This document shows positions 23,020 to 35,482 of a stretch of DNA of 64,000 nt, one piece after another. Numbering within the stretch: position 1 is the first letter of the stretch; every line of letters begins with the position of its first letter. Under the pieces are notes generated by a model, which was given only the letters and a program-made list of their open reading frames with translations, was not told where the DNA came from and made no database searches. Position numbers and translations under genes: made by a program. The stretch is from Chelatococcus sp. YT9 (lineage in GTDB: Bacteria > Pseudomonadota > Alphaproteobacteria > Rhizobiales > Beijerinckiaceae), in contig NZ_JAHBRW010000001.1 of the NCBI RefSeq assembly GCF_018398315.1, positions 1,546,001-1,610,000 on the forward strand, given 5' to 3'.

Positions 23020-23371
23020 CGTTCCACTTTCCAGATCTCAAGGGCCAATTGTCTCTATCACCTTATAACAATAAGAACTTTAGGCTTTCGCCGCAACCCG
23101 CGCGCCCCGCGGCGGGCCGATCAAATGTCCGGCAGACGTTGGCCTTGCCGATGCTACATCGGCCTTGCCACGTCATTCGCGCACAATGACATTCTGCGCT
23201 GGACAGCCGGGGGGACGGCCCGTTGCGGGAGCGGTGATTGAGCATCCTGCGCTAAAACGCTGCAGCCCCGCTTTCGGCCATCAAGGCTGTATGTTACGAC
23301 ATCGTTGAATGAGCCGGCGCAGAACGAGCCAGCCAAACGTGACGAAATGATGAAGAGGTTGCCTGAAGGAT
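23020..23371. promoter_or_regulatory. irr-fabA divergent promoter region
   Basis: A 352-bp region carrying the promoters of irr and the fab genes. At 23062-23075 there is CTTAT-aaca-ATAAG, a small inverted repeat about 45 bp before the irr start and overlapping a possible TATAAG -10 element on the minus strand. That makes it a plausible operator for self-control or for another metal regulator. No textbook iron control element was found. Confidence 0.4.
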
Positions 23372-23896
23372 ATGGAGCGGCAGTCCAGTTTTAATTACGA
23401 AGAGCTTCTGGCTTGCGGCCGCGGCGAGATGTTCGGCCCTGGCAATGCCCAGTTGCCTCTGCCGCCGATGCTGATGTTCGATCGGATCTCGGAAATCGCC
23501 GAAACCGGCGGGGCTTCGGGGAAGGGCTTGGTGCGGGCTGAGCTGGACGTCAGGCCGGACCTCTGGTTTTTCCCATGCCATTTCAAGGGTGATCCTGTCA
23601 TGCCGGGCTGCCTTGGGCTTGATGCTCTCTGGCAGCTCCTTGGCTTCTATCTCGGCTGGCTCGGAGCGCCGGGGCGGGGACGGGCGCTGGGTGTGGGCGA
23701 GGTGAAATTCGTCGACCAGGTCCTGCCGACCGTGAAAAAGGTCGTCTACGGAATCGACCTGAAGCGCGTTTTTCGTTCCAAGCTGGTTCTCGGCATCGCC
23801 GATGGCTGGCTGGAGGCGGACGGCAAGCGCATCTATCTCGCGCAGGATCTGCGTGTCGGATTGTTCCAGGTCCAGGCAGACGCACAGGGCGGCTGA
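23372..23896 (+). CDS. fabA: 3-hydroxydecanoyl-ACP dehydratase/isomerase
   Basis: A 174-residue hot-dog enzyme of the anaerobic unsaturated fatty acid pathway. It dehydrates 3-hydroxydecanoyl-ACP and isomerises the product to the cis-3 form. The active-site His70 and Asp84 lie in [17 protein letters not shown], at the same numbers as in E. coli FabA. It leads a three-gene set with fabB and fabI on the plus strand. Confidence 0.97.
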
Positions 23897-24017
23897 TCGT
23901 GTCACGCGCGCCGCGTCGTAGTCAGTCGAGAGAAGAGACTGGACTTGACGGCGCCGAGTGGCCATATCGCGGGGCAGAAATGGCCGCGAGGTCGAAGGCA
24001 AGGCAGAGGATATTGCG

Positions 24018-25235
24018 ATGAAACGCGTTGTGGTGACGGGGATGGGCATCGTCTCGTCCATCGGCAACAACACGCAGGAGGTGCTTGCATCGCTGCGCGA
24101 GGCACGCTCCGGCATCGTCTTTGCAGACGACTACGCCAAACTGGGCTTCCGCTGCCAGGTCCATGGCGCCCCCACGATGGATCCCGCCGAGGTGGTGGAT
24201 CGGCGCGCCATGCGCTTCCTTGGTGAAGGGGCGGCCTGGAACCACGTGGCCATGGAACAGGCGATCCACGATTCCGGACTGGAGCCGGATGAGGTCTCCA
24301 ACATCCGCACTGGCATCATCATGGGCTCTGGCGGCCCGTCGACGCGCACGCTCGTGGAAGCAGCCGATACGGCCCGGAGCAAGGGTCCGAAGCGGATCGG
24401 CCCGTTCGCCGTGCCCAAGGCCATGTCCTCAACGGCTTCCGCGACGCTCGCGACCTGGTTCAAGATCAAGGGCGTCAACTATTCGATCTCGTCGGCCTGC
24501 GCCACCTCGAACCACTGCATCGGTAACGCCTACGAGACCATCCAGATGGGCAAGCAGGACGTGATCTTCGCGGGTGGCTGCGAGGAGCTCGACTGGAGCC
24601 TGTCGATGCTGTTCGACGCCATGGGCGCCATGTCGTCGAAGTACAATGATCGTCCACAGGTCGCGTCACGCGCCTACGACAAGAACCGCGACGGCTTCGT
24701 CATTGCCGGTGGGGCTGGGGTGCTGGTGCTCGAGGAGCTCGAGCATGCGAGGGCCCGCGGCGCCAAGATTTACAGCGAAATCGTTGGTTACGGCGCAACG
24801 TCCGATGGTTACGACATGGTCGCGCCCTCCGGTGAGGGCGCGGTGCGCTGCATGCGCATGGCCCTGGAAAACGTGAAGGTGCCGGTCGACTACATCAATC
24901 CGCACGCCACCTCGACGCCGGTCGGCGACGAGAAGGAGATCGAAGCGATTCGCGAGGTGTTCGGCGACAAATGCCCCCCTATCTCGGCGACCAAGTCCCT
25001 CACCGGTCACTCCCTCGGCGCGACGGGGGTCCAGGAGGCGATCTATTCGCTTCTCATGATGAACAACGGCTTCATCTGCGAAAGCGCCAATATCGAGGAA
25101 ATCGACCCGCTCTTTGCCGACATGCCCATAGTCCGCAACCGGATCGACGATGCGAAGCTTGGCTGCGTACTGTCGAACTCGTTCGGTTTTGGGGGCACCA
25201 ACGCGACGATCGTCATGAAGCATGTCGATCTCTGA
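24018..25235 (+). CDS. fabB: 3-oxoacyl-ACP synthase I
   Basis: A 405-residue condensing enzyme that elongates acyl-ACP and is essential for carrying the FabA product into unsaturated fatty acids. The catalytic Cys lies in [10 protein letters not shown], and the two His lie in [11 protein letters not shown] and [11 protein letters not shown]. The start at 24018 ([10 protein letters not shown]) has GAGG 8 bases upstream; an earlier in-frame start adds 20 unlikely residues. 121 bp follow fabA. Confidence 0.97.
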
Positions 25236-27738: not shown

Positions 27739-29994
27739 TCAGGTCCGCAGACAGGCAAAGGGCCGGTCGAAGGACCGCAGGGTCTGAATCCATTGCGCGA
27801 AAGCGGCCTCAACGCCACTGACCATGGCGGCGACACTGAAATGATCCTCGTAGCGCTTGCGGCCAGCACGCCCCATGCGCTCGCGCTCATGCGGCGACAA
27901 TGCGAGCTGGACCACCGCGTCGATGAAATCCTCCATATCGTCGGGATTAACGAGAAGGCCTGTCTCGCCGGGCAGCACGATATCCGCACCGCCCCCGCGC
28001 GCTCCGGCGATGACCGCTTTCCCGTGCATCATCGCCTCGACATAGACGAGCCCGAAGGACTCGTAGCGCGACGGCGCCAGAATGAAGTCCGCGCGTTCGT
28101 ACCAGGCGCGCAGTTCGTCCGCTGGCACGTTTCCGCAGAAGGTGATGCGCGCCTGTGTTTCGGGATCCGCTTTTGCGAGAAAGCGCTGCCGCAGGGTGGC
28201 GCCGGTCTGGTCAATGGGCACGTCCTCTCCCACGAAGACGAGATCGAGGTTGGGGGCGGCATCCAGCAGATGCGGTGCCGCCGCCAATAGCGCGTCAACA
28301 CCCTTGCGAGGTTCCAGCCGGCCTATGAAGACCGCCGTGACGCGGCCGTTGTCGTTCGACGGCAGCGGAGATTGGCGGCGGCGGTCGGGCACGCCGTGCG
28401 GCACGATGGTCGCCCGTTGCCCGAGCAGACCGGGGAGCTTGTACACACGCTCCAGGTCGCGAATGATCGGACCTGAATTGGACAGAAGGAACGGAGCGTT
28501 GGCGAGGATCCAGCGCTCGGCCGCGACCACCTCATCGAGCATCGTCTGCTGGATGACGTCGCCACCCTGCCAGTCAGGCTTGTGAGGCCTTGCCAGGCCG
28601 TAGGTCGTGTGGAGCGATACGGCGGTCGGCAGAAGGCCGCTCGTCAGACAGGCGAAGGGTTCGAGATCCCAGATCGGTCCGGAGACAAGATCGAGCCCGC
28701 GCAGGGAGTGGATGCGCATGGCCTCGTCGAAGCAGCGGACCGACCGTGCCTCGAGATGTCGCACCGCCGATGGCAATTTCAGCCGCGACGGAGTGATGGT
28801 GCGGCGGTGGGTCAGCCGATGCACGAAAACACCACGCTCGAAGTCCACGCTTTCACTGTGGCCCGGCGCGGCATCGGCGATCACCGAGATCTCATGCCCC
28901 TCGGCGGCGAGGCCTTCGGCGAGCGTTTGGGTCCAATTGCCGATCCCGCCCATGGGCCCAGACGTATATTGCTGCGAAAGCAGGCAAATTTTGAGCCTGT
29001 CGCCGTTGAAGCGGAGGCGGCTCGGTCTGAACACCATGGGAGCGGTCGCGGGGGGTGTCAGGGGGGTGAGCGGTGGTCGTGTCGCTGCGGCCCGGCCATC
29101 GGCCTCGCCCTGCGTGAGATCCGTGATGAGCGAAGCCTTGCGGGCGAGATCGATATGCCCCTCGCGGGCGAGCAGCGCGATGTCCCGGTTGCGGTCCCGC
29201 CGAAAGCGGAGGAGCCGCTTTTCGACCGTCGCGGCGTCGACATGATCCCGGCCGTGGCGCAGGGCGAAGTAATGGGTGCTGCGCGAAATGGCATAGAGGG
29301 ACTGGGGTATGCGCGCGGCGTTGCGAATGTGGCTTGGTGCATATTTGTGATGCACCTCCGCCTGGGGAACCGCCACGTTGCGATAACCCGCATCCATGAT
29401 GCGGAAGTTGAGATCGGTCTCCTCCAGGAGATAGCGATAATTCTCATCGAATCCGCCGAGTTCCACGACGAGGTCGCGCCTGAACGCGACGTTGGCGCCC
29501 GTTGCCGACAGCACCCGGTCCGCGCCCGGGCGCTGATCGAGATTGGCCGACTGCTCACTCATGAAGGTCTCAAGCCGACCCGTCCGGTCGCAGGTTACGA
29601 CGCGCACCTGGAATCCGACGCCTGTGTGGTCGCGAATGAAGCCGCCGGCTGCCCCGACCTGAGGGTCCTCGAACGGCCGCACAAGCGCCTCAAGCCAAGT
29701 GGGCTCAGGAATAGCGTCGTCGTCGAGGAAAGCAACGATCTCGCCGCAGGAGAGGCTGACACCGATATTGCGGGACGCCGATAGGTTGGCTGTGTCGCAG
29801 CGGGCGACCCGGATGCTGTCACCATAGGCCGCGAGGATCGCGTCCGTGCCGTCTTCGGAGGGGCCGTTGACGACGATGACCTCGAAATTCGCATAACGCT
29901 GCAATTTGAGCGCGGCCAGGGTATTGGCCAGATAGGAGGCGCGATTCAAGGTGTTGATGATCACGCTGACGGTGGGAAGCTCATGCCTTTGCAT
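27739..29994 (-). CDS. GT2-GT4 fusion glycosyltransferase
   Basis: A 751-residue two-domain glycosyltransferase. Residues ~5-230 form a GT2 (GT-A) domain with VIINTLNRASYLANTL, the AFLDDDAIPEPTW metal site and LSATGANVAFRRDL plus EETDLNFRI. Residues ~325-735 form a GT4 (GT-B) domain with SGPMGGIGNWTQTLA, VFIGRLEPRKG and an intact EX7E motif in ESFGLVYVEAM. Two different sugar transfers by one chain suggest assembly of a repeat unit. The ATG at 29994 overlaps the upstream stop (TGATG). It is the last gene of a four-gene unit. Confidence 0.9.
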   Translation of the reverse strand: MQRHELPTVSVIINTLNRASYLANTLAALKLQRYANFEVIVVNGPSEDGTDAILAAYGDSIRVARCDTANLSASRNIGVSLSCGEIVAFLDDDAIPEPTWLEALVRPFEDPQVGAAGGFIRDHTGVGFQVRVVTCDRTGRLETFMSEQSANLDQRPGADRVLSATGANVAFRRDLVVELGGFDENYRYLLEETDLNFRIMDAGYRNVAVPQAEVHHKYAPSHIRNAARIPQSLYAISRSTHYFALRHGRDHVDAATVEKRLLRFRRDRNRDIALLAREGHIDLARKASLITDLTQGEADGRAAATRPPLTPLTPPATAPMVFRPSRLRFNGDRLKICLLSQQYTSGPMGGIGNWTQTLAEGLAAEGHEISVIADAAPGHSESVDFERGVFVHRLTHRRTITPSRLKLPSAVRHLEARSVRCFDEAMRIHSLRGLDLVSGPIWDLEPFACLTSGLLPTAVSLHTTYGLARPHKPDWQGGDVIQQTMLDEVVAAERWILANAPFLLSNSGPIIRDLERVYKLPGLLGQRATIVPHGVPDRRRQSPLPSNDNGRVTAVFIGRLEPRKGVDALLAAAPHLLDAAPNLDLVFVGEDVPIDQTGATLRQRFLAKADPETQARITFCGNVPADELRAWYERADFILAPSRYESFGLVYVEAMMHGKAVIAGARGGGADIVLPGETGLLVNPDDMEDFIDAVVQLALSPHERERMGRAGRKRYEDHFSVAAMVSGVEAAFAQWIQTLRSFDRPFACLRT

Positions 29995-30707
29995 CACGAC
30001 TCTCGCATTTCAATGATGAGGTCGACGGTCGGCCAGGTGCCGGCTGTGCCGCGCCGCAGTCCAATAAGCCGGCAGCCCTGCTGCTCGAAGATCTCCAGCA
30101 CCAGCTGGGGTGACAGCTGCCTTGCCTCGCTTCGCGTCGCCGTCTCCCGGGGGGCGGCAAGGAAGAGCGACAGGCGATCGAGAAGCCGCAGGCACAGCAC
30201 AGCCCGATCGCGCATGGCGTTGCCGAGTGCTTGAGCAAGCGCGCGCACGGCTTCCGGGGTCTCGGTCCCTGACAGCGGGATGGTCGCGGCTGCCAGCGCT
30301 GCTGGCGCGCAGGCGGTGATCTGGGCCAACAGTGTGGAGCGATCCGTTGTGTTTAGATCGAGCGCGATCTGTTGGGGCGCGCTTGTCTCATCCAGCGCAA
30401 GAATGGCAGCCACGGGCGTTGCTGAGGCCTCGACCGGCCCTGCTTCCCGCACCAGGCGCGGCACGTCGTCCAGCTGCGCTGCTTTGACACCGGCGACTAT
30501 GAGCGCGAGCTGATCGAGATCGGCGCGAAGCGCCTGTACGGACGCGCCCACGACATGCAGCTCATCGGCCAGTCCGTCGAAGCTGCGCGGCGCGGGCAGA
30601 AATATCGCCTTGCCGAGCCTGACGATCCCCGTGACGACAAGGCCAGCAAAGGGAATGCGGCGAAGAAGGCGGTAAAGCCTCTTCATGGTGTCGATGGCGG
30701 CACTCAT
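29994..30707 (-). CDS. Hypothetical protein of glycan operon (237 aa)
   Basis: No family recognised. The N-terminus is basic and hydrophobic (LYRLLRRIPFAGLVVTGIVRLGKAIF), suggesting a membrane-associated helix. A region likely to form a coiled coil follows (about residues 45-75), then an Ala-rich middle and a C-terminal alpha/beta part ending LVLEIFEQQGCRLIGL. Its ATG overlaps the preceding stop by ATGA and its TGA overlaps the next start, so it is tightly co-translated between two glycosyltransferase-type genes. It might anchor or organise them; this is inference. Confidence 0.65.
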   Translation of the reverse strand: MSAAIDTMKRLYRLLRRIPFAGLVVTGIVRLGKAIFLPAPRSFDGLADELHVVGASVQALRADLDQLALIVAGVKAAQLDDVPRLVREAGPVEASATPVAAILALDETSAPQQIALDLNTTDRSTLLAQITACAPAALAAATIPLSGTETPEAVRALAQALGNAMRDRAVLCLRLLDRLSLFLAAPRETATRSEARQLSPQLVLEIFEQQGCRLIGLRRGTAGTWPTVDLIIEMRES

Positions 30708-32305
30708 GCGGGTAATACCCTGCTTGTCGCGCGGCGCGGCTCATCCCCGCACAGCAGGGCATCGACACTGGCGACCGAGGCCTCGTTCCAGGCGCTCATA
30801 TAGGCGGTGAGCTTCGGGAAGAGTTCGTTTGTTGCCGCAAGGGCGTCCCGAATCTTGCCCGCCAGATGATGCGGCTGACCCGGCCGCTCGGCCACGTAGA
30901 CGGCGCGCAAGTCCGGGTGGTCACGAAACAGGTGACAGGAAGGGCCGATCAGGCAGGGTACGCCCTCGGCTAAACTCTCGAGAGGTAACATGGGCAGGCA
31001 TTCCGAGGTCGTGATGGAGAGGGTGATCGCCGTCTTACGAAGGGCCGCCTTGAGATCCTGTGGCGCCAACGGGTCGGGAGATATCTCGCCCGTGCTGAGA
31101 CCAATCTCCTCGATCAGGGCCAGGGCACGGTTGTCGAAACCGGCACCGCTGACAGTCACGTGGCGGAGTTCGGAAAGTGCCAGCAGCGTGGCATAAGGGA
31201 GCTTCCGGTATTCCGACGATCCGGACAGCCAGATGCCGGCAGAGTCCCGTGCGCTGGTCGGACGGACGGTGGCTGGGTCGACGGCGATGCGGTTCTGCAC
31301 GAAGGTTGCATTGAACCCGAGCGAGCGCAGAAAACCGTCGAGGCCTCGCTTCACGACCCCGATGCGGCGGATATGGCCCGCTTGGGCCGCGTCGAGCCAC
31401 ATTTGAAGCAGACCCCAATCCGCGGCCTCGCCCATTTGCAGAAAACTCGAATGCCACAGCAGATCGGTCTCGATAGGCCGCCGACGGCGAATGGCCTCGA
31501 CCAGCTTGCGCATGGAGGGATCGCAACCTGACATCACAAGCTTATCGATAGGAAGATAGGCGATCCGCGCGGCGCAGGTCTCAATCTCAGCCGTCGAGAG
31601 ATCTTCCGGATGGCTGTCGTCGACCGGAATTGGAAGTGAACGGTCAAACAGATTGACCGTCGAGGCTGCTGGTCCGCGCCACCGCGGCGTGTAGAGAGCG
31701 AGCGTGACGGCCTGGGCATCGGACTGAGCCGGTGCGGCCATCGCCGTCGCGATGTGGCGATCGAGGGCACTTTCCAATGCCCTTATGCGGAGATGACGCG
31801 CGCTTGTGCGGCGCTGGCTTGTCCGAGCCGTAGGCCGTGCCGCGCCTATGCTCACGGGGCGGGCTGTCGCGTCATCGAGCGTAGCGGTCAACGGCGGAGC
31901 ATCGGCTGGCTCGATGCGGACAAGCCCCGCGTGAGGGTGGCTCAGCAGCTCGACCTCGCCGCCGGTGAAGGGCAGATGCAGCACATCGCCGGCCGCGAGG
32001 CGGATGGCGAGCGGCAGGCGAACACCATGGCCGACGCGCAGATTGCGGATGCGCTCGCCGCCGGTCGGCAGTGCCAGGGTGGCGAGATCGACAGGCCTGC
32101 CCAGGGCTGTGGTGGCCCCGGTGACGATGACGGGTTCGTCCGGCAGCCAGCGTGCCAGAAGTGAGGGCACCGGCATGACTAGGGTCTCGCCTCGCGCCGG
32201 GCGCATCGCGCGCGCCACCTTGAGGCTGGCCAGCGAAGCTGGATGCACTGCGCGTCCGGGGACACGCCGGATGAAGCGGCGGAGGAGGGAAAACTGTCCG
32301 ATCAT
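30704..32305 (-). CDS. Protein with C-terminal GT4-like domain (533 aa)
   Basis: The C-terminal ~250 residues look like the donor-binding half of a GT-B enzyme. They have RIGVVKRGLDGFLRSLGF, IWLSGSSEYRKLPYATLLALS, and TSECLPMLPLESLAEGVPCLIG, which keeps the EX7E spacing. The N-terminal ~200 residues are Ala/Arg-rich with beta-like segments and match nothing I know. It probably acts on the same glycan as its neighbours. Start ATG at 32305, two bases after the preceding stop. Confidence 0.7.
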   Translation of the reverse strand: MIGQFSLLRRFIRRVPGRAVHPASLASLKVARAMRPARGETLVMPVPSLLARWLPDEPVIVTGATTALGRPVDLATLALPTGGERIRNLRVGHGVRLPLAIRLAAGDVLHLPFTGGEVELLSHPHAGLVRIEPADAPPLTATLDDATARPVSIGAARPTARTSQRRTSARHLRIRALESALDRHIATAMAAPAQSDAQAVTLALYTPRWRGPAASTVNLFDRSLPIPVDDSHPEDLSTAEIETCAARIAYLPIDKLVMSGCDPSMRKLVEAIRRRRPIETDLLWHSSFLQMGEAADWGLLQMWLDAAQAGHIRRIGVVKRGLDGFLRSLGFNATFVQNRIAVDPATVRPTSARDSAGIWLSGSSEYRKLPYATLLALSELRHVTVSGAGFDNRALALIEEIGLSTGEISPDPLAPQDLKAALRKTAITLSITTSECLPMLPLESLAEGVPCLIGPSCHLFRDHPDLRAVYVAERPGQPHHLAGKIRDALAATNELFPKLTAYMSAWNEASVASVDALLCGDEPRRATSRVLPA

Positions 32306-32307
32306 CG

Positions 32308-33477
32308 TCAGGCCGCCGGTGATATCAGGAGCTGGGAAATCGCTTCCGTCCGGGCCGGGTTCGCGTGCGGGGTCTGTACGATGCTGTCATGCAGCATTGC
32401 CCATTGCGCATGGTAGTTGCGCGCGAGCATACAAAGCATCGCACCGAGCTCGTCGGACTGTTCCCAATACGGTGACGACATGGTAGCGGCGACCGTTTCG
32501 GGCAGCGGGACGGCACCTGGCCCAACAAGGACGAGCCCGCCTTGATCCAGGACGACGAGCGCTTCCAGATCAATGGCGCCATCTGGGAAGGGGGCCACAT
32601 AAACGACCGGCGTCCCGGCGAGCCGCGCGAGCGCGTCCTCGATCGCGAAATAGGGGAGAAGCCTTTTTCCAAGCCCGAAGGTTCTCAGCAGGGTCGCGAG
32701 ATGGCTGAGTTCCTCGGGCACGAGAATGGCCCCCACGCGGTCACCGATCTCTGCAACAGCAATGGCGACTGCTGCCGCGATGTGACCATGGGTGGGTGTC
32801 TCTCCCGAGCCGCGCCCGATTAAAAGAGCGACGCGCCCCATGCGCGGCCGCCGGCGTGCCGGAGCCGGCGTGAGCCGGCACGGGATGGCCGAGCCGCCAA
32901 GCGCCGTGATGGTTCCCGTCAACGCTTCGTCGATGGCGAGGAGTTTGAAGCGGTCGCCGGCTTGACGCTGGCAGCCGACGAGATCGCGCAGAGCGTTCCA
33001 GTCGCCGGACCGCCAGCGGATCCCCGAACTGAGAACATAGAGGATATCGACGTGGGGGATGCGCCGGACCAGGATACCCGCGACCGCCCGCGCCAGAGGG
33101 CCGTCCATCAGCACGGCGCTGGACAGCTCGGCGCTGCGCAGACAGGCTTCGACGAGCCGTGCGCTCTCGTCCCCATCGGTCAACGTGCTGAGGTCGAGAT
33201 GGATGCGTGCCGCCGGCACGGGAGGCGCCAGGTAGCGGCTCAGGGCGCGCCCACCAACACCTTCGACGATATGGCACGCAGAGCCGGCCCCTGCCGCCGT
33301 ATTGCTGCTCGTTGGCACGGTCGTGACGTCCGGGGCTTGCCCCATCGCGGCGCTGGCCTGATCAGCGGCAGCTTCGGCCACCGCCAGACGGCGCCGGCTT
33401 GAGCGCGGCACTTTTTCCGTTTTTGTAGCATGCAGCTCAGATTGAGGCGTGCACGCTGAAGGCTCGCGAGCATCCAC
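32308..33477 (-). CDS. Hypothetical protein of glycan operon (389 aa)
   Basis: First gene of the four-gene unit. After a low-complexity Ala/Ser-rich N-terminus (about 65 residues), the rest alternates hydrophobic strands and helices in a Rossmann-like way: ARIHLDLSTLT, HVDILYVLSSGIRWR, GRVALLIGRGSGETPTHGH, DRVGAILVPEELSH and TPVVYVAPFPDG. It could be a divergent GT-B protein, but no EX7E or other family motif is seen. The start is uncertain: GTG at 33477 lacks a ribosome site and ATG at 33345 is an alternative. Confidence 0.6.
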   Translation of the reverse strand: MDAREPSACTPQSELHATKTEKVPRSSRRRLAVAEAAADQASAAMGQAPDVTTVPTSSNTAAGAGSACHIVEGVGGRALSRYLAPPVPAARIHLDLSTLTDGDESARLVEACLRSAELSSAVLMDGPLARAVAGILVRRIPHVDILYVLSSGIRWRSGDWNALRDLVGCQRQAGDRFKLLAIDEALTGTITALGGSAIPCRLTPAPARRRPRMGRVALLIGRGSGETPTHGHIAAAVAIAVAEIGDRVGAILVPEELSHLATLLRTFGLGKRLLPYFAIEDALARLAGTPVVYVAPFPDGAIDLEALVVLDQGGLVLVGPGAVPLPETVAATMSSPYWEQSDELGAMLCMLARNYHAQWAMLHDSIVQTPHANPARTEAISQLLISPAA

Positions 33478-34042
33478 GGCGATCTCGTTATGGAAATGAA
33501 TAAAAAATGAATAAATAAGACAATGATATATGCAATCGAGGTTAATATATTGCTAATAATAATAAAAAAATCAATATAGTTCTTCATGTAATTTACGCAT
33601 ATTCTCGTAATTTACGTTATAATAAATAGTAATTTGATAGAGACTGTACATGTCGGATCTAAATTGATGTCGCGCGTCATAGATGCGAAACGCGAAAAGC
33701 CGTATATCGATGGTATTCTCTGATCTTAGGCGTTTTATGGAACCCTTGCGCGTGGTGGGGAATTGCGAAATGCGCAGGCTGGATAGCGTGTTGTGCTGGT
33801 CGCGCGGAGCGTATGGCGCCTTGCGAACATCGCACGGCTGGCTTATGTCGCGCGCTGGTGTCGCTGGCGCCGTCGACGTCGGGTGCGATCTGCCGTCGAA
33901 CGCATTCTTTGGCCGGGTGGAGAATCCTGGTGGAAAATGCCTGCGTTTCATGATGCCTTGCACGGGGGTTACGGCTTTTGCCCGGGATCCCGGCGTGGCC
34001 CACTTTGCGGGCCGGCACGGACGAGAAACTGAGGTTGTGAGA
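33478..34042. other. AT-rich divergent region between glycan operon and argH
   Basis: A 565-bp gap. The left part, about 33490-33680, is far richer in A and T than the rest of the window and holds palindromic repeats (separate entry). The right part, 33683-34042, stays open in the argH frame but has odd composition rich in Cys, Met and Arg, and no ribosome site. It is read here as leader DNA rather than an N-terminal extension. Confidence 0.6.
33587..33623. promoter_or_regulatory. Tandem operator-like palindromes and -10 box
   Basis: CGTAA-T-TTACG at 33606-33616 is a perfect 5-1-5 palindrome. A copy with one change, TGTAA-T-TTACG, is at 33587-33597, 19 bp away, about two helical turns. TATAAT follows at 33618-33623 on the plus strand. 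A weaker partial copy, GTAATTTGA, is at 33629. The layout suggests cooperative binding by a dimeric regulator over a promoter. Confidence 0.5.
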
Positions 34043-35482
34043 TTGACCCGCGAAACGAACGGACCGAGCGCAGATCAGCAGCCTGCGAATACGGATGGCT
34101 CAAGTGGTGGCAACGCCATGTGGGGCGGGCGATTTTCCACCACGCCAAGCGCGCTGATGGAGGCGATCAACGTCTCGATCGGCTTCGACAAGCGTCTGGC
34201 GGGTGAGGATATCACGGGCTCCCTTGCCCACAGTGATATGCTCGCCGCGACCGGCATCATCACCGAGGCGGATCGCGACGCGATCCATGCGGGTCTCGAG
34301 GCCGTCCGTGAGGAGATCACCGAGGGGCATTTCGCCTTTTCCACGGCGCTCGAAGACATTCATATGAATGTCGAGGCTCGCTTGCGCGAGATCGCCGGTC
34401 CAGCGGCCGGCCGGCTGCATACCGCGCGCAGCCGCAATGACCAGGTTGCCACCGACATCCGCCTGTTCGTGCGTGACGCCCATGACCGCGCCGACGCCGG
34501 CTTCACCGCGCTGATGCGTGCCCTTCTCATCCAGGCCGAGCAGCATGTGGCGACGGTGATGCCTGGCTTCACGCATCTTCAAAGCGCGCAACCCGTGACT
34601 TTCGGTCATCATCTCATGGCCTATGTCGAGATGATCGGGCGCGATCGCAGTCGCATGCGCGATTCCCGCAAGCGTCTCAACGAATGCCCGCTTGGCGCCG
34701 CGGCTCTTGCCGGCACGTCCTTTCCCATCGACAGGCATATGACGGCCAAGGCGCTCGGCTTTGATGGACCGACGCGTAATTCGCTCGATTCAGTGTCGGA
34801 CCGGGATTCGCTTCTGGAATACATGACGGTGGCCTCTATTGCGGCCGTCCACCTGTCGCGCCTCGCCGAGGAACTCGTGGTGTGGATGACGCCGCAGTTT
34901 GCCTTCGTGCGTCTTTCGGACCGCTGGACCACAGGCTCCAGCATCATGCCGCAGAAGAAGAACCCGGACGCGGCCGAGCTCGTGCGAGCAAAAACGGGAC
35001 GGATCTTCGGTGCGCTGATGGGCCTCCTGACTGTCATGAAAGGTTTGCCGCTCGCCTATTCCAAGGACATGCAGGAAGATAAGGAGCGTCTGTTCGACGC
35101 AGTCGATACACTCGAACTCGCGCTGGCCGCGACGGCTGGGATGATCGAGGATCTCACCGTCGATGAGGGCCGCATGGCAGCCGCTGCCGGCGCCGGTTTC
35201 TCCACCGCCACCGATCTCGCCGACTGGCTGGTGCGCGCTCTCGACATGCCCTTCCGCGACGCCCACCACGTCACAGGCCGGCTGGTCGCGGAGGCCGAAC
35301 GGCAGGGCGTTGATCTGGAAGATTTGCCTCTCGAGGCATTCACTTCGGTCGAGCCGCGCATCACCGCGGCGGTTTACGATGTGCTCGGCGTCGACAATTC
35401 GGTGAAATCGCGTACCAGTTTCGGCGGCACGGCACCTGCGCGTGTGGCGGAGCAGATCGCCTGGTGGAAGAGCAAAATCTGA
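34043..35482 (+). CDS. argH: Argininosuccinate lyase
   Basis: Splits argininosuccinate into arginine and fumarate, the last step of arginine synthesis. The fumarase/aspartase superfamily signature [12 protein letters not shown] is intact, with the N-terminal [24 protein letters not shown] and [12 protein letters not shown] also present. The start is uncertain: TTG at 34043 has GAGG 8 bases upstream and gives 479 residues; GTG at 34037 is possible; ATG at 34118 (MWGGRF) gives 454. The frame is open far upstream. The following flavoprotein gene starts 23 bp after the stop. Confidence 0.96.

Follow-up and report, generated by a model that had tools for sequence, protein, structure and literature searches.

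The window, a 64-kb stretch of DNA from Chelatococcus sp. YT9, contains four coupled genes on the minus strand. The first gene (32308..33477) encodes a 389-aa protein (P0004) whose low-complexity N-terminus (residues 1-75) is followed by a possibly Rossmann-like alpha/beta region. The second (30704..32305) encodes a 533-aa protein (P0003) with an N-terminal domain of no known family and a predicted C-terminal GT-B half (residues ~200-510), and the third (29994..30707) a 237-aa protein (P0002) with a predicted basic amphipathic N-terminal helix, a short hydrophobic stretch, and a coiled coil at approximately residues 46-79. The fourth (27739..29994) encodes a predicted 751-aa bifunctional GT2-GT4 glycosyltransferase (P0001). 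All four ORFs were found where the initial annotation had placed them, and the junctions, read from the sequence, consist of a 2-base gap between 32308 and 32305, an ATGA overlap at 30704-30707, and a TGATG at 29994. The last gene yields 751 residues from its ATG and 752 from a GTG located one codon upstream. No Pfam or NCBIfam family was detected above the cut-off in the 389-, 533-, and 237-aa proteins.

All four reading frames were intact in each of the four Chelatococcus genomes examined, at synonymous distances of 0.34-1.0. Across these genomes, dN/dS was 0.03-0.06 for the 751-aa protein, 0.09-0.16 for the 533-aa protein, 0.14-0.24 for the 237-aa protein, and 0.18-0.24 for the 389-aa protein. 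Because dN/dS was 0.03-0.24 at such distances, these results indicate that all four genes are functional and under purifying selection. The 389- and 237-aa proteins were the fastest-evolving products of the operon, with rates about 4-6 times that of the 751-aa protein. The gene order, whose conservation the initial annotation had proposed to examine, was identical in all four genomes, as were the neighbors of the operon (argH and genes for an HI0933-like flavoprotein, an AEC-type transporter, and FabI). In searches that included a sample of 297 genomes of the order, the full four-gene order was found solely within Chelatococcus.

An AT-rich intergenic region (33478..33682), presumed to be a promoter, lies upstream of both the operon and argH. 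Its GC content is 28%, and it holds the lowest-GC 200-base stretch of the window (26.5% versus about 62%); the region upstream of the operon was AT-rich (GC 0.30-0.32) and partly conserved in sequence in all four Chelatococcus genomes. In alphaproteobacteria, MucR-type silencers typically act on AT-rich promoters of this kind (PMC8857273), which would make this region a candidate target. A promoter and terminator scan gave scores no better than those of shuffled sequences. The adjacent argH ORF (33683-35482) has approximately 145 extra N-terminal residues ahead of the conserved argininosuccinate lyase domain, and the true argH start probably lies downstream of the annotated one. Elsewhere in the window, a 273-aa ORF of no family (23294-24115) is partly antisense to the start of the ORF at 23958-25235; it is likely spurious, although its frame is kept within the genus.

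The initial annotation had described the 751-aa protein as a GT2-GT4 fusion, and both domains were confirmed by Pfam (PF00535, residues 11-177, 1.2e-27; PF00534, residues 548-715, 1.3e-33). The motifs of both domains were intact, namely the acidic DDD of GT2 at residues 92-94 and the EX7E of GT4 at residues 646-654. Relatives with ~35-41% identity were present in seven other genera (G028, G034, G050, G302, G324, G296, and G138, the last cut by the contig end). In the even sample of the order, the protein was found in 7 of 297 genomes, the source genome included, and this sporadic distribution therefore suggests that the gene was spread by horizontal transfer. Plasmid searches with the 751-aa protein and the relatives' coiled-coil methyltransferase as queries returned nothing useful.

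The gene directly upstream of the GT2-GT4 gene in G034, G302, and G324 specifies a coiled-coil protein with a class I methyltransferase at its C-terminus. The corresponding gene lies one gene further upstream in G050, and in G138 the C-terminal part of such a protein was located ~1.9 kb upstream, at the contig end. A profile of this coiled-coil methyltransferase matched 4 of the 297 order genomes, all of which were among the 7 containing the GT2-GT4 protein. A GT4-domain protein is encoded downstream of the GT2-GT4 gene in G034, G050, G302, and G324. Exporter genes were also present near some relatives, in G324 and G034 on the same contig and accompanied by GDP-sugar genes, with some gene types in these two assigned by eye: in G324, Wzm and a short Wzt-like ATPase are encoded ~10 kb away, separated from the GT2-GT4 gene by genes for Gmd and a second SDR, and in G034 Wzm and a Wzt-like ATPase lie ~20 kb away, accompanied by Gmd, an SDR, and a ManC-like gene, the dTDP-sugar-type genes being nearer to the GT2-GT4 gene than the exporter. 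The relative in G296 stands beside a polysaccharide-export lipoprotein and an exporter-type ABC ATPase. In G028, a weakly TPR-like protein is encoded upstream instead of the coiled-coil methyltransferase. The G028 locus (L014:1-9000) also contains PAPS-forming sulfate-activation genes and a Stf0-type sulfotransferase gene flanking the GT2-GT4 relative, suggesting a sulfated glycan.

The N-terminal 190 residues of the 533-aa protein gave no match. Residues ~200-510 were similar to the C-terminal half of a 738-aa E. coli glycosyltransferase (tblastn 3e-13, 23.6% identity), the gene for which lies in a plasmid-borne cluster with wzm and wzt of the O89/O101/O162 family and, by its position, corresponds to werR (PMC13168486). 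The initial annotation had described a GT4-like C-terminal half joined to an unfamiliar N-terminal half. A profile comparison with the E. coli O101/O89/O162 enzyme by hhalign gave a probability of 98.8% and an E value of 7e-17. The protein has an EX7E motif at residues 435-443, and the motifs EC-PM--LE, W-G, H---Q, and YRK were kept in its alignment with L040, L041, L042, P0009, and P0010. On sequence similarity, the C-terminal half is a member of the GT-B family of the first E. coli O101/O89/O162 glycosyltransferase.

This GT-B half also matched proteins in two genomes of another taxonomic family and at a second Chelatococcus locus, and in each case the 533-like gene is followed by one for another two-domain transferase, of GT4-GT2 order (the GT2 part assigned by Pfam and the GT4 part by eye). 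The second Chelatococcus glycan locus (L042:5396-9682; G000:C1:139.4-143.7 kb) consists of two genes inserted between unrelated ones of housekeeping type; one encodes a fusion of a methyltransferase with a 533-aa-like GT-B part, the other a GT4-GT2 fusion. The methyltransferase fusion was present in all four Chelatococcus genomes; that of C. asaccharovorans shared 57-58% identity with the other three, far below the identity of the 751-aa protein.

The 237-aa gene occupies the slot of the coiled-coil protein upstream of the GT2-GT4 gene. Residues 1-18 of its product are predicted to form a strongly amphipathic basic helix (helical moment 0.75), and the heptad run comprises 10 hydrophobic a/d positions, a number reached by 1 of 5000 shuffles. 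The run was present at equal length in all four Chelatococcus genomes. When the protein was compared with the WbdD type, both the membrane-type amphipathic helix and the coiled coil were predicted, and no methyltransferase, kinase, or transferase terminator domain was detected above the Pfam and NCBIfam cut-offs. We considered whether the protein is a degenerate coiled-coil methyltransferase, which appeared plausible by eye; this candidate failed in hhalign and scored below shuffles with the profile of the relatives' methyltransferase. Alignment of the C-terminus with the coiled-coil methyltransferases against shuffles gave z values of about -1.3 to 1.4. We therefore refer to the 237-aa protein as a putative membrane scaffold, linked to coiled-coil scaffolds by architecture, not by demonstrated ancestry.

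No convincing relative of the 237-aa protein outside Chelatococcus was found in the samples searched, nor of the 389-aa protein in the 297 order genomes; weak profile matches of both in other genomes covered short, unrelated stretches and resembled chance. AlphaFold models of the two orphans, built from four-sequence alignments, had pLDDT values of 39.9 (389 aa) and 35.6 (237 aa), too poor for claims about the fold. The initial annotation had called the 389-aa protein Rossmann-like; alternation of helix and strand was seen at residues 100-190, in a low-confidence model. In a Foldseek search, GT-B enzymes headed an insignificant list (best E 0.011, LanGT2), and in VIA-align BshA scored Z 5.7 amid unrelated Rossmann folds, which was not significant. 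Smith-Waterman comparison with the GT-B half of the 533-aa protein gave z 4.8-6.0 within the same genome; the sister genomes were weaker (z -1.2 to 3.7), and hhalign was negative. A paralogous relationship to that half is possible, and the 389-aa protein is perhaps a Rossmann-like, divergent or inactive GT-B partner.

The initial annotation had stated that no transporter, polymerase, or sugar-nucleotide gene accompanies the operon. For glycan exporters, polymerases, and sugar-nucleotide genes this is true locally, but such genes are present elsewhere in the genome. At C1:1252807-1254396, some 320 kb away from the operon, lies a stand-alone Wzm/Wzt pair; against models of galactan export, its products reach 208 and 296 bits, short of the equivalog cut-offs. 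Wzm was 94-97% conserved among all four Chelatococcus genomes, and the carbohydrate-binding Wzt_C domain was not found in any of them. The idea that terminator loss is tied to a Wzt lacking this domain was unsupported: G324 and G034 keep the methyltransferase, yet their Wzt-like proteins are short (250-253 aa). A WecA-like transferase and a WbpM-like dehydratase are encoded ~25 kb from the Wzm/Wzt pair, and none of the exporter, initiating transferase, and sugar-nucleotide genes is linked to the operon. Exporter genes were linked to the GT2-GT4 gene only in the relatives G324 and G034; linkage of exporter and transferase genes is usual, not universal, in Wzm/Wzt-dependent O-antigen systems. 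A separate EPS-like locus at C1:334-350 kb encodes a WecA-like transferase together with flippase-like and Wza-like proteins, the last two assigned by eye. Among the papers searched, none dealt with Chelatococcus LPS.

In Klebsiella and E. coli, it is established that polymerase and terminator can be joined on a coiled-coil membrane scaffold: the lipid-linked O-antigen chain is extended in a membrane complex, and the coiled-coil holder often bears the terminator (PMC11231755, PMC13168486). The E. coli O101/O162/O89 cluster (werR, wzm, wzt, a coiled-coil methyltransferase gene, and werT; PMC13168486) resembles the Chelatococcus operon in that its first glycosyltransferase is related to the GT-B half of the 533-aa protein, its transferases are dual-domain, and its coiled-coil protein is proposed to form a complex with them. 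In contrast, the Chelatococcus genes are dispersed, the 533-aa protein differs in its N-terminal part, where the E. coli relative has a GT4 domain, no methyltransferase is part of the coiled-coil protein, and the GT2-GT4 fusion and the 389-aa protein are additional. The Klebsiella O3/O4/O7/O12 systems (WbdA/WbdD, WbbB; PMC11231755) likewise have multi-module transferases gathered by a membrane coiled-coil protein with an amphipathic helix, whereas the Chelatococcus operon has no detected terminator domain, a short coiled coil (~30 residues), no Wzt carbohydrate-binding domain in the genus, and no sequence homology to WbdD that we could find. The cassettes of G034, G050, G302, and G324 share a homologous full-length GT2-GT4 protein and a coiled-coil protein at or next to the upstream slot; their coiled-coil proteins, however, carry a methyltransferase and an ordinary GT4 follows downstream, whereas in Chelatococcus the remaining genes of the operon, for the 389- and 533-aa proteins, lie upstream. 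The second Chelatococcus locus pairs the same GT-B family with a two-domain transferase of opposite domain order, but has its own N-terminal methyltransferase and no visible 237- or 389-aa homologue.

Overall, the operon probably encodes a complex that extends the chains of a surface polysaccharide. The polymer is most likely the O-antigen of LPS, synthesized in the cytoplasm before a Wzm/Wzt ABC transporter exports it. We favor this reading because relatives of the 751-aa protein adjoin coiled-coil methyltransferases and exporters, because the GT-B half of the 533-aa protein has a relative among E. coli O-antigen enzymes, because the source genome has a conserved Wzm/Wzt pair as well as WecA-like and WbpM-like genes, and because the 237-aa protein has coiled-coil and amphipathic features. 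With GT2 and GT4 in the 751-aa protein and the GT-B half of the 533-aa protein, two or more glycosyltransferase modules are predicted, and these enzymes would alternately add sugars to an undecaprenyl-linked chain. The amphipathic helix of the 237-aa protein would dock at the membrane and its coiled coil would hold the enzymes together, as in O-antigen systems, in a scaffold lacking a recognizable chain-terminating domain; the 389-aa protein would be a fast-evolving partner, perhaps an inactive GT-B subunit. We infer that the operon works with the remote Wzm/Wzt pair as a complex held by this scaffold, and infer likewise its sugars and final product. A terminator might come from the second locus, in the form of the methyltransferase in its 533-like fusion, or the chains may be uncapped. 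A more specific version, which we regard as unlikely, is a terminator-less complex in which the 237-aa scaffold has no capping domain, the 389-aa protein is a dead GT-B paralogue that activates or gates the 533-aa protein, and chain length is set by scaffold stoichiometry or export alone.

The EPS-like locus at C1:334-350 kb could be the real partner of the operon, and enzymes with GT2 and GT4 domains likewise take part in making EPS, capsule, and core; both points count against an O-antigen. The remoteness of the exporter, initiating-transferase, and sugar-nucleotide genes, the negative homology tests between the 237-aa protein and the coiled-coil methyltransferases, and the unplaced 389-aa protein also weigh against the favored reading. 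The operon might then make or decorate a secreted exopolysaccharide or capsule exported by that locus, with its WecA-like, flippase-like, and Wza-like proteins, or by a capsule-type exporter, as the setting of the G296 relative beside an export lipoprotein and an ABC ATPase, typical of capsule systems, would allow. We consider this somewhat unlikely, given the kinship of the 533-aa GT-B half with an O-antigen enzyme, the two GT2-GT4 relatives that lie with Wzm/Wzt, and the operon's lack of linkage to the EPS locus. Three or four transferase-like proteins with no dedicated polymerase, local exporter, or terminator domain could also build a short, non-polymeric oligosaccharide, such as the LPS outer core or a protein or lipid glycan. 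This seems quite unlikely, since relatives of the 751-aa protein adjoin coiled-coil methyltransferases, typical of chain-length control, and neither an oligosaccharyltransferase nor a carrier protein was seen near the operon. That the 389- and 237-aa proteins are functionless, decaying remnants would agree with their rapid evolution and their lack of a recognized catalytic domain; it is highly improbable, given that the frames stay intact in all four genomes although dS reaches 1.0, that dN/dS is 0.14-0.24, and that gene order and heptad run are preserved.

On the O-antigen chain-extension reading, the operon is most likely a familiar type of machine in an unusual form rather than a new kind. 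The initial annotation had proposed a novel surface-glycan or glycoprotein machine. A coupled surface-glycan module is supported, with two proteins (389 and 237 aa) unknown outside the genus; "novel machine" is too strong, as both recognizable glycosyltransferases are of known types, one being related to the E. coli O101/O89/O162 O-antigen enzyme, and as genes for relatives of the 751-aa protein cluster with those for Wzm/Wzt exporters. No result points to a glycoprotein. A match to a characterized glycan pathway, or an order kept in no relative, had been named as speaking against novelty; half of this applies, through the two recognizable glycosyltransferases.

If the O-antigen reading is right, the polymerase-scaffold logic of enterobacterial ABC-exported O-antigens would extend to an alphaproteobacterial genus with dispersed genes. 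The operon would provide a natural case of a coiled-coil scaffold lacking a recognizable terminator, useful for studying chain-length control without capping. An unclassified GT-B family would also be tied together across distant Pseudomonadota, joining the Chelatococcus 533-aa protein with the E. coli O101/O89/O162 enzyme.
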